IMG/VR virus record: IMGVR_UViG_3300044904_000301
Coordinates: 1 to 30,211 of that record
DNA length: 30,211 nucleotides
Reading direction: 5' to 3' (one strand)
Origin: a virus
Part shown: piece after piece, positions 1,788 through 15,773 of the stretch
Position numbering within the stretch: position 1 is the stretch's first letter
How the letters are laid out: each line of letters opens with the position of its first letter
Notes under the pieces: model-generated
Seen by the model: only the letters and a program-made list of their open reading frames with translations
Database searches by the model: none
Told to the model about the DNA's origin: nothing
Position numbers and translations under genes: made by a program

Positions 1788-1816
1788 TTGACATCGCGTG
1801 GGTGAGCTGCTATACT
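1788..1816 (+). promoter_or_regulatory. Strong sigma-70 promoter
   Basis: TTGACA at 1788-1793 and TATACT at 1811-1816 are separated by 17 bp. The -35 is perfect and the -10 has one mismatch. It would drive the winged-helix gene at 1905 through a leader of about 80 bases, and perhaps the structured region beyond it as far as the terminator at 2771. Confidence 0.85.
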
Positions 1817-1904
1817 AGTCTCTGTTGATTCGGATGTTGTGTGTTTTGACGCCACGCAAACGTTCATGACATGGTAGCGTCATATTCTCATGGGAGATAA
1901 GTGA

Positions 1905-2228
1905 ATGATTGAACGTAAGACAGTGAACGCAAAGATTCTGCGCCTGCTTCAGGGTGGGTACGATTATACGGCAGACCAGATTCGTCAGCGGTTCGGCATC
2001 CGTGATGTCGGCAACCGTATCACGGAGCTTCGGAAGGCTGGATACGCGATCTACCTGAACGAAAAGACTACGACAATTGGCGACAAGATCAAGGTCTATC
2101 GCCTCGGTCGCCCAACGCGCAAGCAGGTGGCTGCAGGGTTCGCGCTTCTCAACGATCCGCTTTTGCGGTCGTATCGCGAGATGTATTTTGAATACGAGGT
2201 TGACGATAACCTCGCTCTCGCGAAGTAA
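1905..2228 (+). CDS. Winged-helix DNA-binding protein
   Basis: The 107-residue protein has an N-terminal helix-turn-helix with a wing: NAKILRLLQGGYDYTADQI, RQRFGIRDVGNRITELRKAG, then YAIYLNEKTTTIGDKIKVYRL as the beta wing. This layout matches the short phage helix-turn-helix proteins of the HTH_39 type. The C-terminal tail is acidic and may be a contact surface. GGGAGA at 1890-1895 is upstream of the ATG at a slightly long spacing. The gene has its own strong promoter, so it may be an early regulator of phage or host transcription. It is followed directly by the long structured non-coding region, which could be its 3' untranslated region. The target is unknown. Confidence 0.7.
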   Translation: MIERKTVNAKILRLLQGGYDYTADQIRQRFGIRDVGNRITELRKAGYAIYLNEKTTTIGDKIKVYRLGRPTRKQVAAGFALLNDPLLRSYREMYFEYEVDDNLALAK

Positions 2229-2811
2229 GTTCTGCACTGGCGAAAGCCTGTTGCTTCCTGGGTGGCTGCTGAAGCGGCTGTGTAATAGTGGATGACTCCC
2301 CAGGCAATACCAAAATACGTCATTCGTTCCTGTGCCTAAATGGAATCGGCTATGGTTACAGCAGGATATCTAAATGCGCGATGCTCGGTAGCGTGTTCCT
2401 GACCGAGCAGTTACCTTAACTTTATGAGGGAGTGCTATCATGCCTAGTTGAGATATGATAGAAAAGTGCGTAAGGGAGACCTGATCGCACGGTGAACCAA
2501 ATAGTGCCGAAAACGTTTCGTGGTAAGGCTAGCACAATTTGAAAAAGAGACATTAAAGTCTCGACAAGCTAGTAACTACGCTACTCCGTCACAAGATGAC
2601 GGCGGCCGCCCGGTTCTGCTGAGAGTAGAGTTGCAGTAGTTGGTTCGTGACCGCTACGCTCGCAATGAGGATCAGCATCCTACGAGGGGTAGGAACGTGA
2701 GAGATGGGAAGAGAGACGCGCTCTATTTAGGTTAGATGCTTATTTTAGAAAACTTATTTTGTGATTGACGGGGCTAGAGGACGCAAAGCGACTTCTAGCC
2801 CTTTTGCTTTT
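2229..2811 (+). ncRNA. Candidate large structured non-coding RNA (about 580 nt), unidentified class
   Basis: No credible protein is encoded here, yet the plus strand can form many perfect stems. These are 2382-2389 with 2402-2409 (8 bp); 2435-2441 with 2455-2461 (7 bp); 2466-2470 with 2486-2490, enclosing a 3-bp stem capped by a GAGA tetraloop; 2496-2499 with 2521-2524, enclosing 2508-2512 with 2516-2520; 2528-2533 with 2568-2573, enclosing 2547-2551 with 2558-2562; 2586-2591 with 2597-2602 (6 bp, CAAGA loop); and two mutually exclusive stems, 2668-2672 with 2677-2681 against 2679-2683 with 2689-2693. It ends in a strong terminator. The 5' end is not known; it may be processed from the transcript of the upstream promoter. 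The size and phage setting recall the large ornate RNAs GOLLD and ROOL, but I cannot identify either. It is not a tRNA, tmRNA or RNase P RNA that I can recognise. Confidence 0.5.
2771..2811 (+). terminator. Intrinsic (rho-independent) terminator
   Basis: GGGCTAGA at 2771-2778 pairs with TCTAGCCC at 2794-2801. The stem continues inward with a GU pair, a GC pair, one A-A mismatch and three more pairs around an AAA loop. A T-rich tract (TTTTGCTTTT) follows at 2802-2811. It closes the transcript that contains the structured region. Confidence 0.88.
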
Positions 2812-2814
2812 AAC

Positions 2815-2843
2815 TTGACTTTGCTTGATGTGTGTGAGACAAT
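2815..2843 (+). promoter_or_regulatory. Sigma-70-like promoter giving a near-leaderless transcript
   Basis: TTGACT at 2815-2820 and GACAAT at 2838-2843 are 17 bp apart. The -35 has one mismatch and the -10 has two. Transcription would begin about at 2850, which is the A of the ATG of the next gene, so the mRNA might have almost no leader. Confidence 0.5.
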
Positions 2844-2849
2844 AGCGAC

Positions 2850-3203
2850 ATGATTGATTTGTATGTGGATGATGTGAGAGTGTGCCCGGATGGATGGTGT
2901 ATCGCAAGAGACATTCGCGCAGCAAAGGAATGGCTCAAGACCGGTGTGGTAGAGCATTTGAGTTTAGACCACGACATGGGTGCTTGCCCGGACTGTGTGG
3001 CTGCTCGCAAGGACTGCGGCGACATGTTGACGCCAGAAACAACGTTCTGGAATTGGTGCCCGCACGAAGAGGACGGCACTGCACTCGTTCACTGGATGAT
3101 TGAGAATGACATCTGGCCGAAATACAAACCTGTGGTGCATAGTGCCAACCCTGTTGGGGCTGCACGAATGCGCGGCATGATTGATCGGTATTGGCATGAA
3201 TAA
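2850..3203 (+). CDS. Cyclic-phosphate processing receiver-domain (cREC-like) protein
   Basis: The 117-residue protein matches the compact receiver-like family predicted to act on cyclic phosphates. It has the N-terminal strand with paired aspartates (LYVDDVR, D7 and D8), CPDGW, the SLDHDMG motif in the middle, and near the C-terminus the signature HSANPVGAARMRGMI. In the family these acidic residues and the HSANP element form the presumed active pocket. An insertion with four cysteines and a histidine (ACPDCVAARKDC, then NWCPH) sits between the central motif and the last helix and may bind zinc. No Shine-Dalgarno sequence precedes the ATG. Role in the phage: possibly RNA repair or removal of a cyclic nucleotide signal, which is inference. 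Confidence 0.7.
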   Translation: MIDLYVDDVRVCPDGWCIARDIRAAKEWLKTGVVEHLSLDHDMGACPDCVAARKDCGDMLTPETTFWNWCPHEEDGTALVHWMIENDIWPKYKPVVHSANPVGAARMRGMIDRYWHE

Positions 3204-3507: not shown

Positions 3508-3537
3508 TTCGGAGGTGTCATATAGATATATGGTGCG

Positions 3538-3637
3538 CGTCCGGCGAAGCTGCTAGTAGACGTTCAACAATCCTACCGGACGTCGAAGTCAGTGAGAGCC
3601 GCGTTCCTGCCTTGGGGGCCCGTCGATCTGGCGGGCC
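3538..3637 (+). promoter_or_regulatory. Structured leader and possible terminator/attenuator before the endonuclease VII-like gene
   Basis: The 149-base gap holds two good stems. CGTCCGG at 3538-3544 pairs with CCGGACG at 3576-3582 (7 bp); an alternative helix joins 3559-3563 with 3580-3584. GGCCCGTC at 3617-3624 pairs with GGCGGGCC at 3630-3637 around a GATCT loop, and is followed by TCAATTTTA. The second hairpin could stop transcription or attenuate it, but its T tract is poor. No promoter is obvious in the gap. Confidence 0.4.
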
Positions 3638-3656
3638 TCAATTTTATGGAGTAGTG

Positions 3657-4960: not shown

Positions 4961-5547
4961 TGAAAGTGAAGTGCTGCAAATGCGGGTCAGAGCGCGAGAT
5001 AGATGACGAACTAATAGACCCGATAGACATTACAAAGCCATTCACTTGTCTATCGTGTTATGGGATAGCGCAGCTCACGTCCGCCGGGAATGAGTCGTAT
5101 GATGTAAGCTCGAAGCCGACAAACCCAAAGGATACTATCGGGAGTGACAAGGTCCCGATTCATCTGTGGCCCGAAACTGCCACAATCTTGGGTGCGATGG
5201 CGTTGCTGGATGGAGCGTTGAAGTATGGACGCGCCAACTGGCGACACGATGGGGCTCGGGCTTCAATCTACTTTGATGCGTGTCGTCGGCACCTCAATAA
5301 GTGGTTCGAGGGCGAGGACACGGACCCTGATTCGGGACTTCCACATTTGGCACACGCACTCGCAAGCATCGCGATTGTCGTTGATGCGGAGGCGATGGGA
5401 GAACTGGTTGATGACCGCCAGTTTGCCACATCGTCTGACGGTCGCCGGTATGCGGCCGCTATCGATGCACTCACCCCGCACGTCAAGCGGCTGAAGGACT
5501 TGTATAAGGACCGAAAGCCAAAGCACTGGACTATCGCCGATGTATAG
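4960..5547 (+). CDS. dATP/dGTP pyrophosphohydrolase-like (DUF5664/MazZ family)
   Basis: The core at about residues 53-140 matches the all-alpha family that includes MazZ of cyanophage S-2L: NPKDTIGSDKVP, then LDGALKYGRANWR, then RHLNKWFEGEDTDPDSG and LPHLAHALASIAI. Characterised members remove phosphate from dATP and dGTP. The first 35 residues form a likely zinc ribbon (CCKCGS, then CLSC), an addition I do not expect in the minimal enzyme. The ATG overlaps the stop of the glycosyltransferase gene, so the two genes are coupled. Together with the MazG gene at 11355 it points to purine dNTP pool control. No PurZ homologue is visible, so a 2-aminoadenine genome should not be inferred. Confidence 0.75.
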   Translation: MKVKCCKCGSEREIDDELIDPIDITKPFTCLSCYGIAQLTSAGNESYDVSSKPTNPKDTIGSDKVPIHLWPETATILGAMALLDGALKYGRANWRHDGARASIYFDACRRHLNKWFEGEDTDPDSGLPHLAHALASIAIVVDAEAMGELVDDRQFATSSDGRRYAAAIDALTPHVKRLKDLYKDRKPKHWTIADV

Positions 5548-5549
5548 TC

Positions 5550-5578
5550 TTGACTTATCACCCCAGTTCGTTTATAAT
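5550..5578 (+). promoter_or_regulatory. Strong sigma-70 promoter for the sliding clamp gene
   Basis: TTGACT at 5550-5555 and a perfect TATAAT at 5573-5578 are separated by 17 bp. They lie just before the clamp gene at 5603 with its AAGGAG site. It looks like the main early promoter of the replication cluster. Confidence 0.88.
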
Positions 5579-5602
5579 GGTCTATTGAAGGAGTAGTATC
5601 GT

Positions 5603-6292
5603 ATGGCAGCATTTGCAGTAAGTAGCACAGTTCAAAAGGTCCTTAAGAATTTCGCCGGGATTTCCGGTTCCGTTCTTCTCGCAGAGGGCAAGTCGCAGAA
5701 GACCGTTTCACAGGGCAAGTCAGTTCTGGCTCTGGCGGAATTCCCCGATGCGTGGCCGCAGGAAACTGGCATCTATGACTTGGACAAGTTCCTCGGCATC
5801 CTCTCGCTTGATAGTAAGCCGGAGATTGAGTTCGGTGAGGAGTCGATGACGATCACATCTGGTGCATCCAGCGTGACCTATCGCTACTCCGACCCCACCA
5901 CAATCCTGGTCCCACCCAGTAAGAAGCTCCCCGTTGATGATCCCGCAGTAGAGTTTACACTCTCGGAAACGGTGCTTTCACGTCTTGGGAAGGTCACAGC
6001 GATGTTGGACCTCGACCAGATTGTCTTCAGTATCAATATCACCGACGACGAAAAGACCGTGACCGTCAGAGCAGCGGATGCGAAGAACCCCGTGTCGCAC
6101 AAGGCCAGCATCGTAGTGCCGAGTGAGGACATCGTGGTGCATCGTCCGTTCACTGCGGACCTCAAGGTCAAGGCGGAGAACTTCCGTATGCTGATGGATG
6201 GCGGATATGTTGTGTCCGTATCCAAGTGGTCATACGTGTTCTTCACGCACAAGACGGAACCCGTCTCGTATTACGTCGTTATTCAGCCATAG
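5603..6292 (+). CDS. 45: DNA polymerase sliding clamp (T4 gp45-like)
   Basis: At 229 residues it is almost the length of T4 gp45 (228). The N-terminal part shows the clamp pattern: VQKVLKNFAGISGSVLLAEG, SVLALAEFPD and IYDLDKFLGILSL, then a second domain with FTLSETVLSRLGKVTAML. The C-terminus (KWSYVFFTHKTEPVSYYVVI) is the last strand of the second domain. The trimeric ring tethers polymerase gp43 and, in T4-type phages, also the late sigma-like factors gp55 and gp33. It has its own strong promoter and a good AAGGAG site. It begins the conserved order 45-44-62-regA-43, although here other genes and a tRNA separate 45 from 44. Confidence 0.93.
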   Translation: MAAFAVSSTVQKVLKNFAGISGSVLLAEGKSQKTVSQGKSVLALAEFPDAWPQETGIYDLDKFLGILSLDSKPEIEFGEESMTITSGASSVTYRYSDPTTILVPPSKKLPVDDPAVEFTLSETVLSRLGKVTAMLDLDQIVFSINITDDEKTVTVRAADAKNPVSHKASIVVPSEDIVVHRPFTADLKVKAENFRMLMDGGYVVSVSKWSYVFFTHKTEPVSYYVVIQP

Positions 6293-6300
6293 GAGGCAGG

Positions 6301-6687
6301 ATGTTTGTTCTTTTACTATCGGTTATTGGGCTCGTCACGTTGGCGGCGCTCATCTGGGCAGTATGGAAGATTGCTTCGTTGAAGCAGGAAATCTACCATT
6401 TGGAAGTGGACCGTCGGTTTGATGGAGGCTGGCAGCACGCCTCCGACATCGGCGAGGCTCTGGGTCGTCAGATTGAGACGTTAGAACACAAGCTCGAAGA
6501 GGAATGCAAAAAGCTGGAAACAGAATGGCAGCAGACCCTTGACAGCACTCGCGACTACTTACAGGAACGAATCAATAACGTGGAGCGCAAGATCGAGAAG
6601 GACAGAGAATCGTCCGAGCGGTATGCGACTGACCAGTTCGCTGAACTCTATCACCGGATTGATGCGTTAGAGGGAAAGCGCAAGTAA
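6301..6687 (+). CDS. Membrane-anchored coiled-coil protein
   Basis: The 128-residue protein starts with one clear transmembrane helix (about residues 2-22, FVLLLSVIGLVTLAALIWAVW) and continues as a long charged coiled coil (from about residue 50: IGEALGRQIETLEHKLEEEC through VERKIEKDRESSERYATDQF). The ATG at 6301 follows an excellent AGGAGGCAGG, nine bases after the clamp stop, so it shares the clamp mRNA. It may be anchored in the inner membrane with the coil in the cytoplasm. The function is unknown; its place behind the clamp is not part of the T4 arrangement. Confidence 0.75.
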   Translation: MFVLLLSVIGLVTLAALIWAVWKIASLKQEIYHLEVDRRFDGGWQHASDIGEALGRQIETLEHKLEEECKKLETEWQQTLDSTRDYLQERINNVERKIEKDRESSERYATDQFAELYHRIDALEGKRK

Positions 6688-12503: not shown

Positions 12504-14036
12504 GTGAAGCACACTATTCGTCAGGTGAAGTATCTCAAGTCTCTTCGTCCAGAGCTGCAATACACGTCTATTGCAACGATAGGCAACCGTGTCTTTGCGC
12601 GGGCCCGGGCGAATGATGGTGCTCCCGTCTTTGTTGAAACAGAATACTGCCCTACCTATTTTACTCCTGATCTTACAGGCGCGTATGGTGCCGTAGGATT
12701 CGATGGAACCGCGCTCATGCCTAATGTGTGCGACACCATCAACGACGGCCGCCGGTTTCTTGAAGAGCAAGAGGAACACGGCGTGCCCGTCTATGGAAAC
12801 ATTCAACCCGAATACATGGTTCTCTCTGATGTCTATGGAGACAAGGATATCGATCCGAATATGGACCGGCTCCTCGTTTGGTTCCTCGATATCGAAGTGG
12901 ACCGAGACCCTATCAAGGGATTCGCCAAGATTGATGATCCGTTCAACCCGGTGACCGCGATCACGGTTATCTGGCAGCACATGGGACAGACCGGGACCGT
13001 GATCTACGGGACCAAAGACTACACACCCAAAGATGCAGAAACCTACGTGCAGTGCAAGAATGAGGACGAACTGCTCCGTCGGTTCCTTGACGATTTCAGC
13101 GCGGGTTACGACTACCCAGACATCGTGACGGGCTGGAACGTCCAGTTCTACGATATCCCGTATCTTATCAACCGCATGAAGCTCCTGTTCGCGGAAGAGA
13201 ACTGGATGCGGTTCTCGCCATTCGAGCGTATCCAAGACCGTCGCGTGACGCTGAATGGTCGGGACCAGACCGTGATGGATGTCAAGGGTATTGCGATTCT
13301 GGACTATTATGAGCTATACCGTAAGTTCACGTATCAACAGCAGGAATCTTACCGTCTCGACCACATCGCGCACGTAGAGCTAGGTAAGCGGAAGCTGTCC
13401 TATGCGGAGTTCCGTTCGCTCTATCGATTGTATCGGGAGAACCACCAAAAATTTATAACCTATAATGCGAATGATGTTAAGTTGGTGGTAGAACTTGATG
13501 CGAAGATGAAGCTCATTGAACTGGTGTGCGCTCTCGCGTATGGGAGTAAAGCCAATTTTGCAGATACGTTCCACCAAGTCCGGCTGTGGGATATCATGGC
13601 CTACCATTATTTGCGCGCCCAGGGTAAGCAAATCCCGCCGCGGAAGAACGAGACGAAGACCGAACAGTATGCGGGCGCGTATGTGAAGGACCCGTTGGTG
13701 GGACTTCACAACTGGGTCGTATCCTTTGACGTGGCGTCGATGTACCCCGGAATTATTCGTGAATGGAACTTGTCTCCGGAGACGATCATCGACCGGTCAT
13801 GTGTGAATAAATGGACGGTAGATGACTTTCTTACCAAGTCGGTAGACACCACACCCTATAGTGGCACATGTCTTGCGGGAAACGGACTACGCACACGCTC
13901 TGATGTTGAAGGTTTCATACCACACATGCTGAAAACGTTGTATGAAGAGCGTATTCGGTTTAAGGGACTGATGAACCAGGAAAAAAACACGTTAGAGTTG
14001 GTTAAAGCAGAGAAGCGTCGTCGGGGTTTAGAATAG
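12504..14036 (+). CDS. 43A: DNA polymerase family B, N-terminal part (T4 gp43-like, split)
   Basis: The 510 residues hold the N-terminal domain, the complete 3'-5' exonuclease and polymerase motif A. Exo I is FLDIEVD (D129, E131), Exo II NVQFYDIPYL (D217), Exo III YNANDVKL (Y320, D324), and motif A is SFDVASMYPGIIREWN (D409). The sequence stops at 14036 in the helical fingers region (LVKAEKRRRG), before motif B. Motifs B and C lie in the gene at 14685, so the enzyme must be assembled from two chains, or joined by splicing. Start GTG 12504 is weakly supported. Its last 35 bases overlap the reverse-oriented GIY-YIG gene. Split gp43 genes are known in Aeromonas T4-like phages. Confidence 0.93.
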   Translation: MKHTIRQVKYLKSLRPELQYTSIATIGNRVFARARANDGAPVFVETEYCPTYFTPDLTGAYGAVGFDGTALMPNVCDTINDGRRFLEEQEEHGVPVYGNIQPEYMVLSDVYGDKDIDPNMDRLLVWFLDIEVDRDPIKGFAKIDDPFNPVTAITVIWQHMGQTGTVIYGTKDYTPKDAETYVQCKNEDELLRRFLDDFSAGYDYPDIVTGWNVQFYDIPYLINRMKLLFAEENWMRFSPFERIQDRRVTLNGRDQTVMDVKGIAILDYYELYRKFTYQQQESYRLDHIAHVELGKRKLSYAEFRSLYRLYRENHQKFITYNANDVKLVVELDAKMKLIELVCALAYGSKANFADTFHQVRLWDIMAYHYLRAQGKQIPPRKNETKTEQYAGAYVKDPLVGLHNWVVSFDVASMYPGIIREWNLSPETIIDRSCVNKWTVDDFLTKSVDTTPYSGTCLAGNGLRTRSDVEGFIPHMLKTLYEERIRFKGLMNQEKNTLELVKAEKRRRGLE

Positions 14037-14595
14037 TTGCTCGTCCACCTTTGCGAGTCCAGGTTCCTAATAGTTTTTCTTTTTGAATGTGGTTCTTCAT
14101 TGAGTCGCTGATTTTTTTACGATGTTCTAATGAGAGCGGTAAACGTTTTTGCCCTCGTTGTCGTAGCGTTTGTTTCATGCCAAACTCTGGCGGCATTTTC
14201 TTTCCTTTACGGGCAATACTCATTTTTTGTTTAGTTTCTTGTGTACATGCTAAACGTTTTGCCCGTGCTTCTTTCATTTTGATGCGAGTTTCGTCGCTAT
14301 GTTTGTGACCGAATGTGCCGTCACCACCATTAGTCATATTGTATTGTGGAGTAAGTTTAGATATCCAATATTGCTCTTGTATTTTTATGTGTTCAGGAGC
14401 GGCAGAGTCGAGTATTTTGATAGTAAAATGCTCGGCACCATATTTGCGAATGGCACGATGAAATATTGTTGGTGAGCCGTTACGTGCCGAATTTTGGTGC
14501 TGTTTCCACCGGCGCTCAACAGTTTTCGTTGTTAGACCGATGTAGTTTTTGTGGTTGATGTTGTTTGTGACGCAGTATATAATAGATGTAGACAC
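14002..14595 (-). CDS. GIY-YIG homing endonuclease splitting the polymerase gene
   Basis: The N-terminus is a good GIY-YIG domain: SIIYCVTNNINHKNYIGLTT, then RRWKQH, FHRAIRKYG, IQEQYWI with the catalytic glutamate, and YNMTNGGDG. The C-terminal part has four NUMOD3-like repeats (DETRIKMKEARAKR, QETKQKMSIARKGKK and so on), as in I-TevI and SegA type enzymes. I chose the GTG at 14595 because a perfect AAGGAG (14607-14602 on the minus strand) stands six bases before it; an ATG at 14658 would add 21 unrelated residues. The gene is opposite to the polymerase it interrupts. Upstream are a strong 12-bp hairpin and a CTAAATAA element. Confidence 0.9.
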   Translation of the reverse strand: MSTSIIYCVTNNINHKNYIGLTTKTVERRWKQHQNSARNGSPTIFHRAIRKYGAEHFTIKILDSAAPEHIKIQEQYWISKLTPQYNMTNGGDGTFGHKHSDETRIKMKEARAKRLACTQETKQKMSIARKGKKMPPEFGMKQTLRQRGQKRLPLSLEHRKKISDSMKNHIQKEKLLGTWTRKGGRATILNPDDASLL

Positions 14596-14628
14596 GCCGG
14601 ACTCCTTGAAAGTCTGGATGGGTTTAGG

Positions 14629-14658
14629 GTGAGTAGAGGTCGTCAAACTTCTACTCAC
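14629..14658. promoter_or_regulatory. Strong 12-bp hairpin between the GIY-YIG gene and the second polymerase part
   Basis: GTGAGTAGAGGT at 14629-14640 pairs with ACTTCTACTCAC at 14647-14658 around a CGTCAA loop, with one GU pair. It lies in the 5' leader of the endonuclease mRNA and, on the other strand, just upstream of the second polymerase gene. It could be a weak terminator (TCGTTATTT follows on the plus strand), an mRNA stabiliser or a translational control element. Confidence 0.6.
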
Positions 14659-14661
14659 TCG

Positions 14662-14669
14662 TTATTTAG
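14662..14669 (-). promoter_or_regulatory. T4-late-promoter-like element (CTAAATAA)
   Basis: On the minus strand CTAAATAA stands 66 bases before the GTG of the GIY-YIG gene, with the 12-bp hairpin between them. It resembles the late element of T4-type phages (TATAAATA). Confidence 0.4.
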
Positions 14670-14684
14670 TGTTAGAGATGGGCT

Positions 14685-15773
14685 ATGATAGAACTAACAT
14701 CGATGACGGACGAAGAGTTACTCATATACGAAAAGAATACCGAGAAGCGCATGACCGCTTATAAGAACCAGCAGTTGGTAAGGAAGGTGAACCTCAATAG
14801 TGCTTACGGTGCTCTCGGAAGTGCGTACTACCGGTTCTACGACATCAACCTAGCAGAAGCGGTGACCAAGACTGGGCAATTGATTATTCGTTGGGTGGCA
14901 AAGGACGTGAATGCGTATCTCAATAAGCAGTTCAAGACTAATGAGGATTACATTATTGCGTCCGATACGGATTCTATCTATGTCCGTATGAGTGCGTGTG
15001 CCCGGGCCTACCAGAATCTCTATCCGAATGATACGAAAGAGCAAGTGGTGGCGATGCTAGACAAGTTCTGTAACCAGAAGCTCCAGCCCGTCATCAATCA
15101 GGCGTTCTCCGATTTGGCGGACTACATGAACGTTGTGATTCCTTGCCTATCCATGGTGCGGGAGAGTATCGCGGATAAGGGTGTATGGACAGCCAAGAAG
15201 CGTTACATCCTCAACGTCTATGATAGCGAGGGCGTGCGTTACAAGGAACCCAAGCTCAAGATCATGGGGATTGAGGCGGTTAAGTCGAGCACTCCCGCGA
15301 TTTGTCGAGACATGATCAAGCACGCCATGAAGCTCTTTATGACGGGCACCCAGGAAGATGTGTGGGCGTATATCGAGGAGTGCCGCGGAAAGTTTGTTGG
15401 GGCGCCCTTTGAAGATATCGCGTTTCCTCGCTCGGTGAACGGAATGAAGAAATACAGCCACATGGACAAGAGCGTTCCGATTCACGTCAGGGGCGCACTT
15501 GCGTTCAACGAGGCTTTGAAGTCGTTTGGGCTGGAAAAAGAGTATGAGCCGGTGCATGAGGGTGAGAAGATTCGGTTCTCGTATCTCAAGGAACCCAATA
15601 CGTTTCACACGCACGTCATGAGCGCCCCCGAGGGGTGCCCGCCAGAGTGGAACATCGAGAAGTGGATTGACTATGAGACGATGTTTGAAAAGAGTTTGGT
15701 TGAGCCTTTGGAGGCGATTCTTTCCTGCGCAGGGTGGTCCACCACCCACACAGCGTCCCTCTTTGACGATTGA
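14685..15773 (+). CDS. 43B: DNA polymerase family B, C-terminal part (T4 gp43-like, split)
   Basis: The 362 residues hold the rest of the polymerase domain: motif B RKVNLNSAYGALG (K34, N38, Y41), motif C ASDTDSIYV (D94, D96) and the thumb with WTAKKRYILNVYD and KIMGIEAVKSSTPAICRDM. The end, MFEKSLVEPLEAILSCAGW and then TASLFDD, matches the T4 gp43 C-terminus that binds the clamp. Added to the first part the length is 872 residues, near the 898 of T4 gp43, so nothing essential is lost. Both parts lie in the same reading-frame phase. The ATG has only a weak purine-rich site (GAGATGGG). This chain alone cannot act; it needs motif A from the first part. Confidence 0.93.
   Translation: MIELTSMTDEELLIYEKNTEKRMTAYKNQQLVRKVNLNSAYGALGSAYYRFYDINLAEAVTKTGQLIIRWVAKDVNAYLNKQFKTNEDYIIASDTDSIYVRMSACARAYQNLYPNDTKEQVVAMLDKFCNQKLQPVINQAFSDLADYMNVVIPCLSMVRESIADKGVWTAKKRYILNVYDSEGVRYKEPKLKIMGIEAVKSSTPAICRDMIKHAMKLFMTGTQEDVWAYIEECRGKFVGAPFEDIAFPRSVNGMKKYSHMDKSVPIHVRGALAFNEALKSFGLEKEYEPVHEGEKIRFSYLKEPNTFHTHVMSAPEGCPPEWNIEKWIDYETMFEKSLVEPLEAILSCAGWSTTHTASLFDD

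Follow-up and report, generated by a model that had tools for sequence, protein, structure and literature searches.

Nucleotides 2229 to 2811 of the window, by which we mean the whole 30,211-nt stretch of viral DNA analyzed here, appear to encode a functional structured RNA, a conclusion supported by conservation of the locus, sequence identity above that of a flanking gene, non-triplet insertions and deletions, and covariation. Our preferred reading, held with about even confidence, is that this would be a co-transcribed 3'-UTR RNA acting as an RNA-processing or stability module within a small T4-like phage clade. The 30.2-kb virus contig has a T4-like gene content, with genes for a sliding clamp, clamp loader, UvsX, DnaB-like helicase, and a split DNA polymerase. 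The region is bounded on its 5' side by an HTH_39 gene and on its 3' side by a cREC gene, and an endonuclease VII gene is also among its neighbors. The features of the locus are as follows.

1788 to 1816, plus strand: promoter TTGACA-17-TATACT with an extended -10 (TGC), the sole strong promoter ahead of the RNA.
1847 to 1882, plus strand: 5'-UTR stem TGACGC/GCGTCA ahead of the HTH gene, partly conserved.
1905 to 2228, plus strand: winged-helix gene of the HTH_39 family (phrog_4973, with no assigned function), expected to share a transcript with the RNA.
2231 to 2254, plus strand: helix P1, GCAC/GTTGC plus a GGC-GNRA-GCC hairpin, directly 3' of the HTH stop codon, in three sequences.
2255 to 2375, plus strand: variable peripheral segment with unlike hairpins, about 120 nt here and shorter in the relatives L007 and L008.
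2382 to 2409, plus strand: helix P2, TGCTCGGT/ACCGAGCA, with a conserved 12-13-nt loop; one pair differs at both bases in L007 (G-C to A-U).
2445 to 2533, plus strand: conserved core, comprising the hairpin GTGCG..AGG-GAGA-CCT..CGCAC and GGYG-RACCAAAYAG-YGCC.
2586 to 2602, plus strand: 3'-domain hairpin CCGTCA/TGACGG (CCGGA/TCCGG in L008), in the window and L008 only.
2678 to 2694, plus strand: 3'-domain hairpin TCCTAC/GTAGGA, then a conserved RACGTGAGA; the central CCTAC/GTAGG is kept in L008.
2771 to 2811, plus strand: intrinsic terminator (stem 2771-2801, U tract 2802-2811).
2815 to 2843, plus strand: promoter TTGACT-17-GACAAT, 3' of the terminator, serving the transcription unit that follows (cREC).
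2850 to 3203, plus strand: cREC gene (PF20274), predicted to act in cyclic-phosphate processing (PMC7824862).

A first-pass annotation of this DNA had described the region as non-coding, and this was borne out: no open reading frame of at least 50 amino acids lies wholly inside 2324-2739 on either strand, and all six frames of 2229-2811 are full of stops (7-14 per frame). Its boundaries for the region were also right, the start lying directly against the stop codon of the HTH gene (2228), and the stems, GNRA tetraloop, and strong terminator that it reported are present; we found two GNRA loops, GAAA at 2242-2245 and GAGA at 2476-2479. The abundance of stems, which it had taken to signal an RNA, was not shown to exceed chance. 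The folding energy of the region gave z scores of -2.1 and -1.9 with the terminator and -1.15 without it, within the range of 18 control windows from the same contig (+1.3 to -3.6, with coding controls down to -3.6), and the only inverted repeat of at least 10 nt is the terminator itself. Because the energy is not unusual against the control windows, an argument from many perfect stems could not stand alone, and folding energy by itself would not show a structured RNA here.

The case was instead made with homologues. A search with the flanking proteins led to three contigs, L007, L008, and L002, that match the window in gene order and have a long non-coding interval at the corresponding position. 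A homologous RNA lies between the HTH_39 and cREC genes of the T4-like contigs L008, where the alignment with the window spans the whole length, and L007, which has the 5' part only. The core (2445-2533) is 87% identical between the window and L007, as against 68% for the cREC region; the 12 differences in it fall 2, 4, and 6 over the three codon positions, with no open forward frame, and indels among the homologous RNAs are non-triplet. The slot of L002 shares the tail CCCTTTTGCNTTTAA and short motifs with the window; the profile does not find L002, whose RNA we tentatively regard as a diverged counterpart.

As the first-pass annotation had proposed, the homologous intergenic regions were aligned, and the consensus fold obtained with RNAalifold surpassed those of column-shuffled alignments, with z=-3.0 (0/300) for alignment A7, z=-3.0 (0/100) for alignment A5, and z=-4.4 for the pair of window and L008. 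Covariation was assessed over three clear homologues, one partial, so that the helix-by-helix signal is thin to modest; some helices nonetheless keep pairing through sequence changes. P1 is paired at every position in all three sequences, with one double change from G-C to C-G and with loops GAAA, GCAA, and GCAA, and taken singly does not exceed shuffling (161/500). Within the core, the inner helix of the hairpin changes from AGG/CCT to CAG/CTG with pairing kept, GGUG/UGCC becomes GGCG/CGCC in L008, and the changes include wobble to Watson-Crick replacements. The two mutually exclusive stems near 2668-2693, put forward earlier as a possible switch, are real in the window sequence (GGAT/ATCC at 2669-2680 versus TCCTAC/GTAGGA at 2678-2694). 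However, such a switch is not conserved, since the former stem lies within an insertion absent from L008, whereas the latter is kept there.

The RNA ranges from about 290 to 580 nt across the homologues. L007 lacks everything from about 2535 to the terminator, about 290 nt remaining, yet retains the 5' domain, so this domain is the conserved unit; with the 3' half missing there, a giant RNA is unlikely to be that unit. In the contig L013 nothing but a terminator separates the same two genes, and the RNA is therefore dispensable.

The first-pass annotation had likened the RNA to the giant phage RNAs GOLLD and ROOL and proposed an Infernal/Rfam scan for these, HEARO, and introns. No Rfam covariance model matched the RNAs of the window, L007, L008, or L002 at E<=10, and membership in GOLLD or ROOL thus failed its test. 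Of that suggestion the structured RNA survived, given locus conservation and covariation, but the giant class did not, given the lack of an Rfam match and the approximately 290 nt of L007. HEARO (IscB omega RNA) likewise had no match and the neighbors are HTH_39, cREC, and endonuclease VII; group I and II introns had none and the region lies between two intact genes. Nor was pistol matched in any of the four RNAs. The CUGANGA..GAAA core of the hammerhead is absent from the window RNA, and the region has no direct repeats such as would mark a type III toxin-antitoxin RNA. For HDV-like ribozymes there was no HDV-type match in Rfam, and a descriptor scan, unvalidated and run without a positive control, found nothing; theta ribozymes of this type are phage ribozymes described in RNA-processing contexts (PMC10879173). 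The sole Rfam match at E<=10 near the window RNA, sR36 (E 2.2), falls inside the cREC gene and is attributed to chance.

Wider searches returned the same few loci. Named phages had no DNA-level homologue, the matches listed being to the L002 tRNA. When viral contigs were scanned with patterns for P1, P2, and the core, only L007 and L008 were recovered, plus coincidences in coding sequence; a core scan of genome contigs gave six matches, about the chance expectation, of which the best two were inspected and were coding DNA. No second copy of the RNA was present in 115 loci, and HTH relatives in Stenotrophomonas phage DLP_6 and the Melnitz phage leave no space for such an RNA.

One alternative, which we consider improbable, is a stand-alone, trans-acting large phage RNA of the ornate kind, serving as a scaffold or cage and merely using the HTH promoter. 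The length of about 580 nt, the complex predicted fold, and the phage setting speak for it, as does a tRNA just downstream in L002, GOLLD and ROOL also being found near phage tRNA islands (PMC12286853). Like those RNAs, the window RNA is large, structured, and phage-borne, with tRNAs nearby in some relatives; unlike them, its conserved unit is a 5' domain, about 300 nt long, within a predicted mRNA 3' UTR. The variable length, the loss of the 3' half in L007, the absence of an Rfam match, and the placement of the L002 tRNA under its own promoter all argue against a trans-acting RNA.

The transcription signals bear on the placement in a 3' UTR. All four phages have a near-consensus extended -10 promoter 5' of the HTH gene (the window, L007 at 5247, L008 at 5071, and L002 at 5869), and no promoter separates the HTH gene from the RNA. 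Since the promoter precedes the HTH gene, none intervenes, and the cREC promoter follows the terminator, the RNA is expected to form the 3' UTR of the HTH mRNA, both under one strong promoter and one terminator. The terminator tail CCCTTTTGC is common to the window and L002; in L008 the terminator is a hairpin without a U run, and in L007 it is deleted. Stems similar to that at 1847-1882 occur in L007, L008, and L002 (CGACGC/GCGTCG in the last), and this 5'-UTR stem is possibly an autoregulatory site for HTH.

In related phages the orthologous slot 3' of the HTH gene is occupied by known self-cleaving ribozymes. The T4-like contig L038 carries a pistol ribozyme (Rfam RF02679) at 5531-5602, 254 nt 3' of the HTH stop and scoring 66.3 bits (cut-off 34.5), with further structured RNA and then a terminator on its 3' side. 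The pistol class was discovered through searches in the vicinity of phage genes and genes associated with ribozymes (PMC4604425). Type-I hammerheads lie about 40 nt 3' of the HTH stop in L022 (3971-4028) and L023 (5341-5398), in the same slot as the window RNA, which differs in lacking their core. Each has the full set of core nucleotides and three stems, four pairs differ between the two by compensatory changes, and they were the only two distinct matches to a strict hammerhead pattern in about 1 Mb of loci; their Rfam scores of 21-22 bits are below the cut-off, so the assignment rests on core and covariation. A sub-threshold pistol (29.9 bits) occurs in L036, also a T4-like contig, at 2423-2481, after an intervening 542-aa open reading frame. 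By eye, the ribozyme-type order is HTH stop, hairpin, ribozyme, structured body, and terminator, and most relatives have a hairpin after the HTH stop codon. In L004 and L005 the slot holds a short conserved structured RNA (6240-6600 and 6240-6455, respectively) that follows the HTH gene and precedes an array of tRNAs, with no Rfam match. The case for connecting ribozyme ends with cREC is appealing but weak, as cREC was not found in the loci of L022, L023, or L038 and is present in L013 without the RNA.

The position of the window RNA in this slot is what points to a processing or stability module. Transcription would run from the promoter at 1788 through the HTH gene and the RNA to the terminator at 2811, a two-part unit in which the 5' domain (P1 and P2 together with the core, up to about 2535) is the conserved portion and the 3' domain and terminator would end the transcript. 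The RNA would determine where the HTH mRNA stops on its 3' side and part it from the downstream RNA; hammerhead and pistol ribozymes presumably serve this function at the equivalent site in related phages. The agent at the junction might be the RNA itself as a new ribozyme, a host-RNase site, or a stabilizing fold only; transcription and processing of the region, and self-cleavage as opposed to host-RNase cleavage, are what we infer here. Against processing, the window-type RNA has no known ribozyme core and no sequence similarity to the ribozyme-bearing RNAs, local alignment of the two types giving nothing convincing. A bolder reading, which we consider unlikely, is that the 5' domain (about 2231-2535), whose core is GTGCG-hairpin-CGCACGGYGRACCAAAYAGYGCC, represents a self-cleaving ribozyme of a class not yet described; if so, it would replace hammerhead and pistol at the 3'-UTR slot and free the downstream RNA from the HTH mRNA. 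A slot with different known self-cleaving ribozymes in related phages is a natural place to seek unknown ones. The window RNA is a specific candidate, and it raises the question of what role ribozyme-released RNAs and a small HTH protein have in T4-like phages.

We also think it rather unlikely that the RNA is a cis-acting 3'-UTR element that stabilizes or regulates the HTH mRNA only, by protein binding or by blocking 3' exonucleases, with no cleavage. In both L007 and L008 the RNA likewise begins immediately 3' of the stop codon, and the hairpin at this point in most relatives would fit such an element, but its most conserved part is 210-300 nt from the stop codon and a plain hairpin would suffice, as in L013. 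That the region is intergenic DNA, unselected or in decay, whose hairpins arose by chance beside a terminator is very unlikely: the unexceptional single-sequence folding energy and the absence of the RNA from L013 are compatible with it, but not the island of 87% identity without a reading frame or a consensus structure beyond that of shuffled alignments. Least probable is a regulatory leader or riboswitch for cREC, which lies directly 3' of the RNA and has lost the intervening terminator in L007, because a terminator and a separate promoter stand between RNA and gene in the window.

A second conserved structured RNA, with a likely pseudoknot and a terminator-like hairpin, was observed at 3531-3649 and has no Rfam match; it precedes a phrog_1574 gene in relatives, and in the window the endonuclease VII gene intervenes. 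A model built from five phages (R1) found it on the expected strand in L013 (8e-6), L022 (0.0011), and L023 (0.006), with nothing else new below E=0.1 in a scan of 0.95 Mb; the RNA occurs in eight phages of the group. Most of the phages differ in the sequence of its helix B, yet the helix pairs in each; when partners were swapped among six sequences, the native score was reached in 3/720 permutations, native order counted. The helix GCGTCCGG/CCGGACGT is predicted to form a pseudoknot with helix B. Elsewhere in the window, the T4-like DNA polymerase at 12504-15773 is in two open reading frames, the gap between them holding a homing endonuclease gene on the minus strand (14002-14658) with GIY-YIG-type families among its matches.
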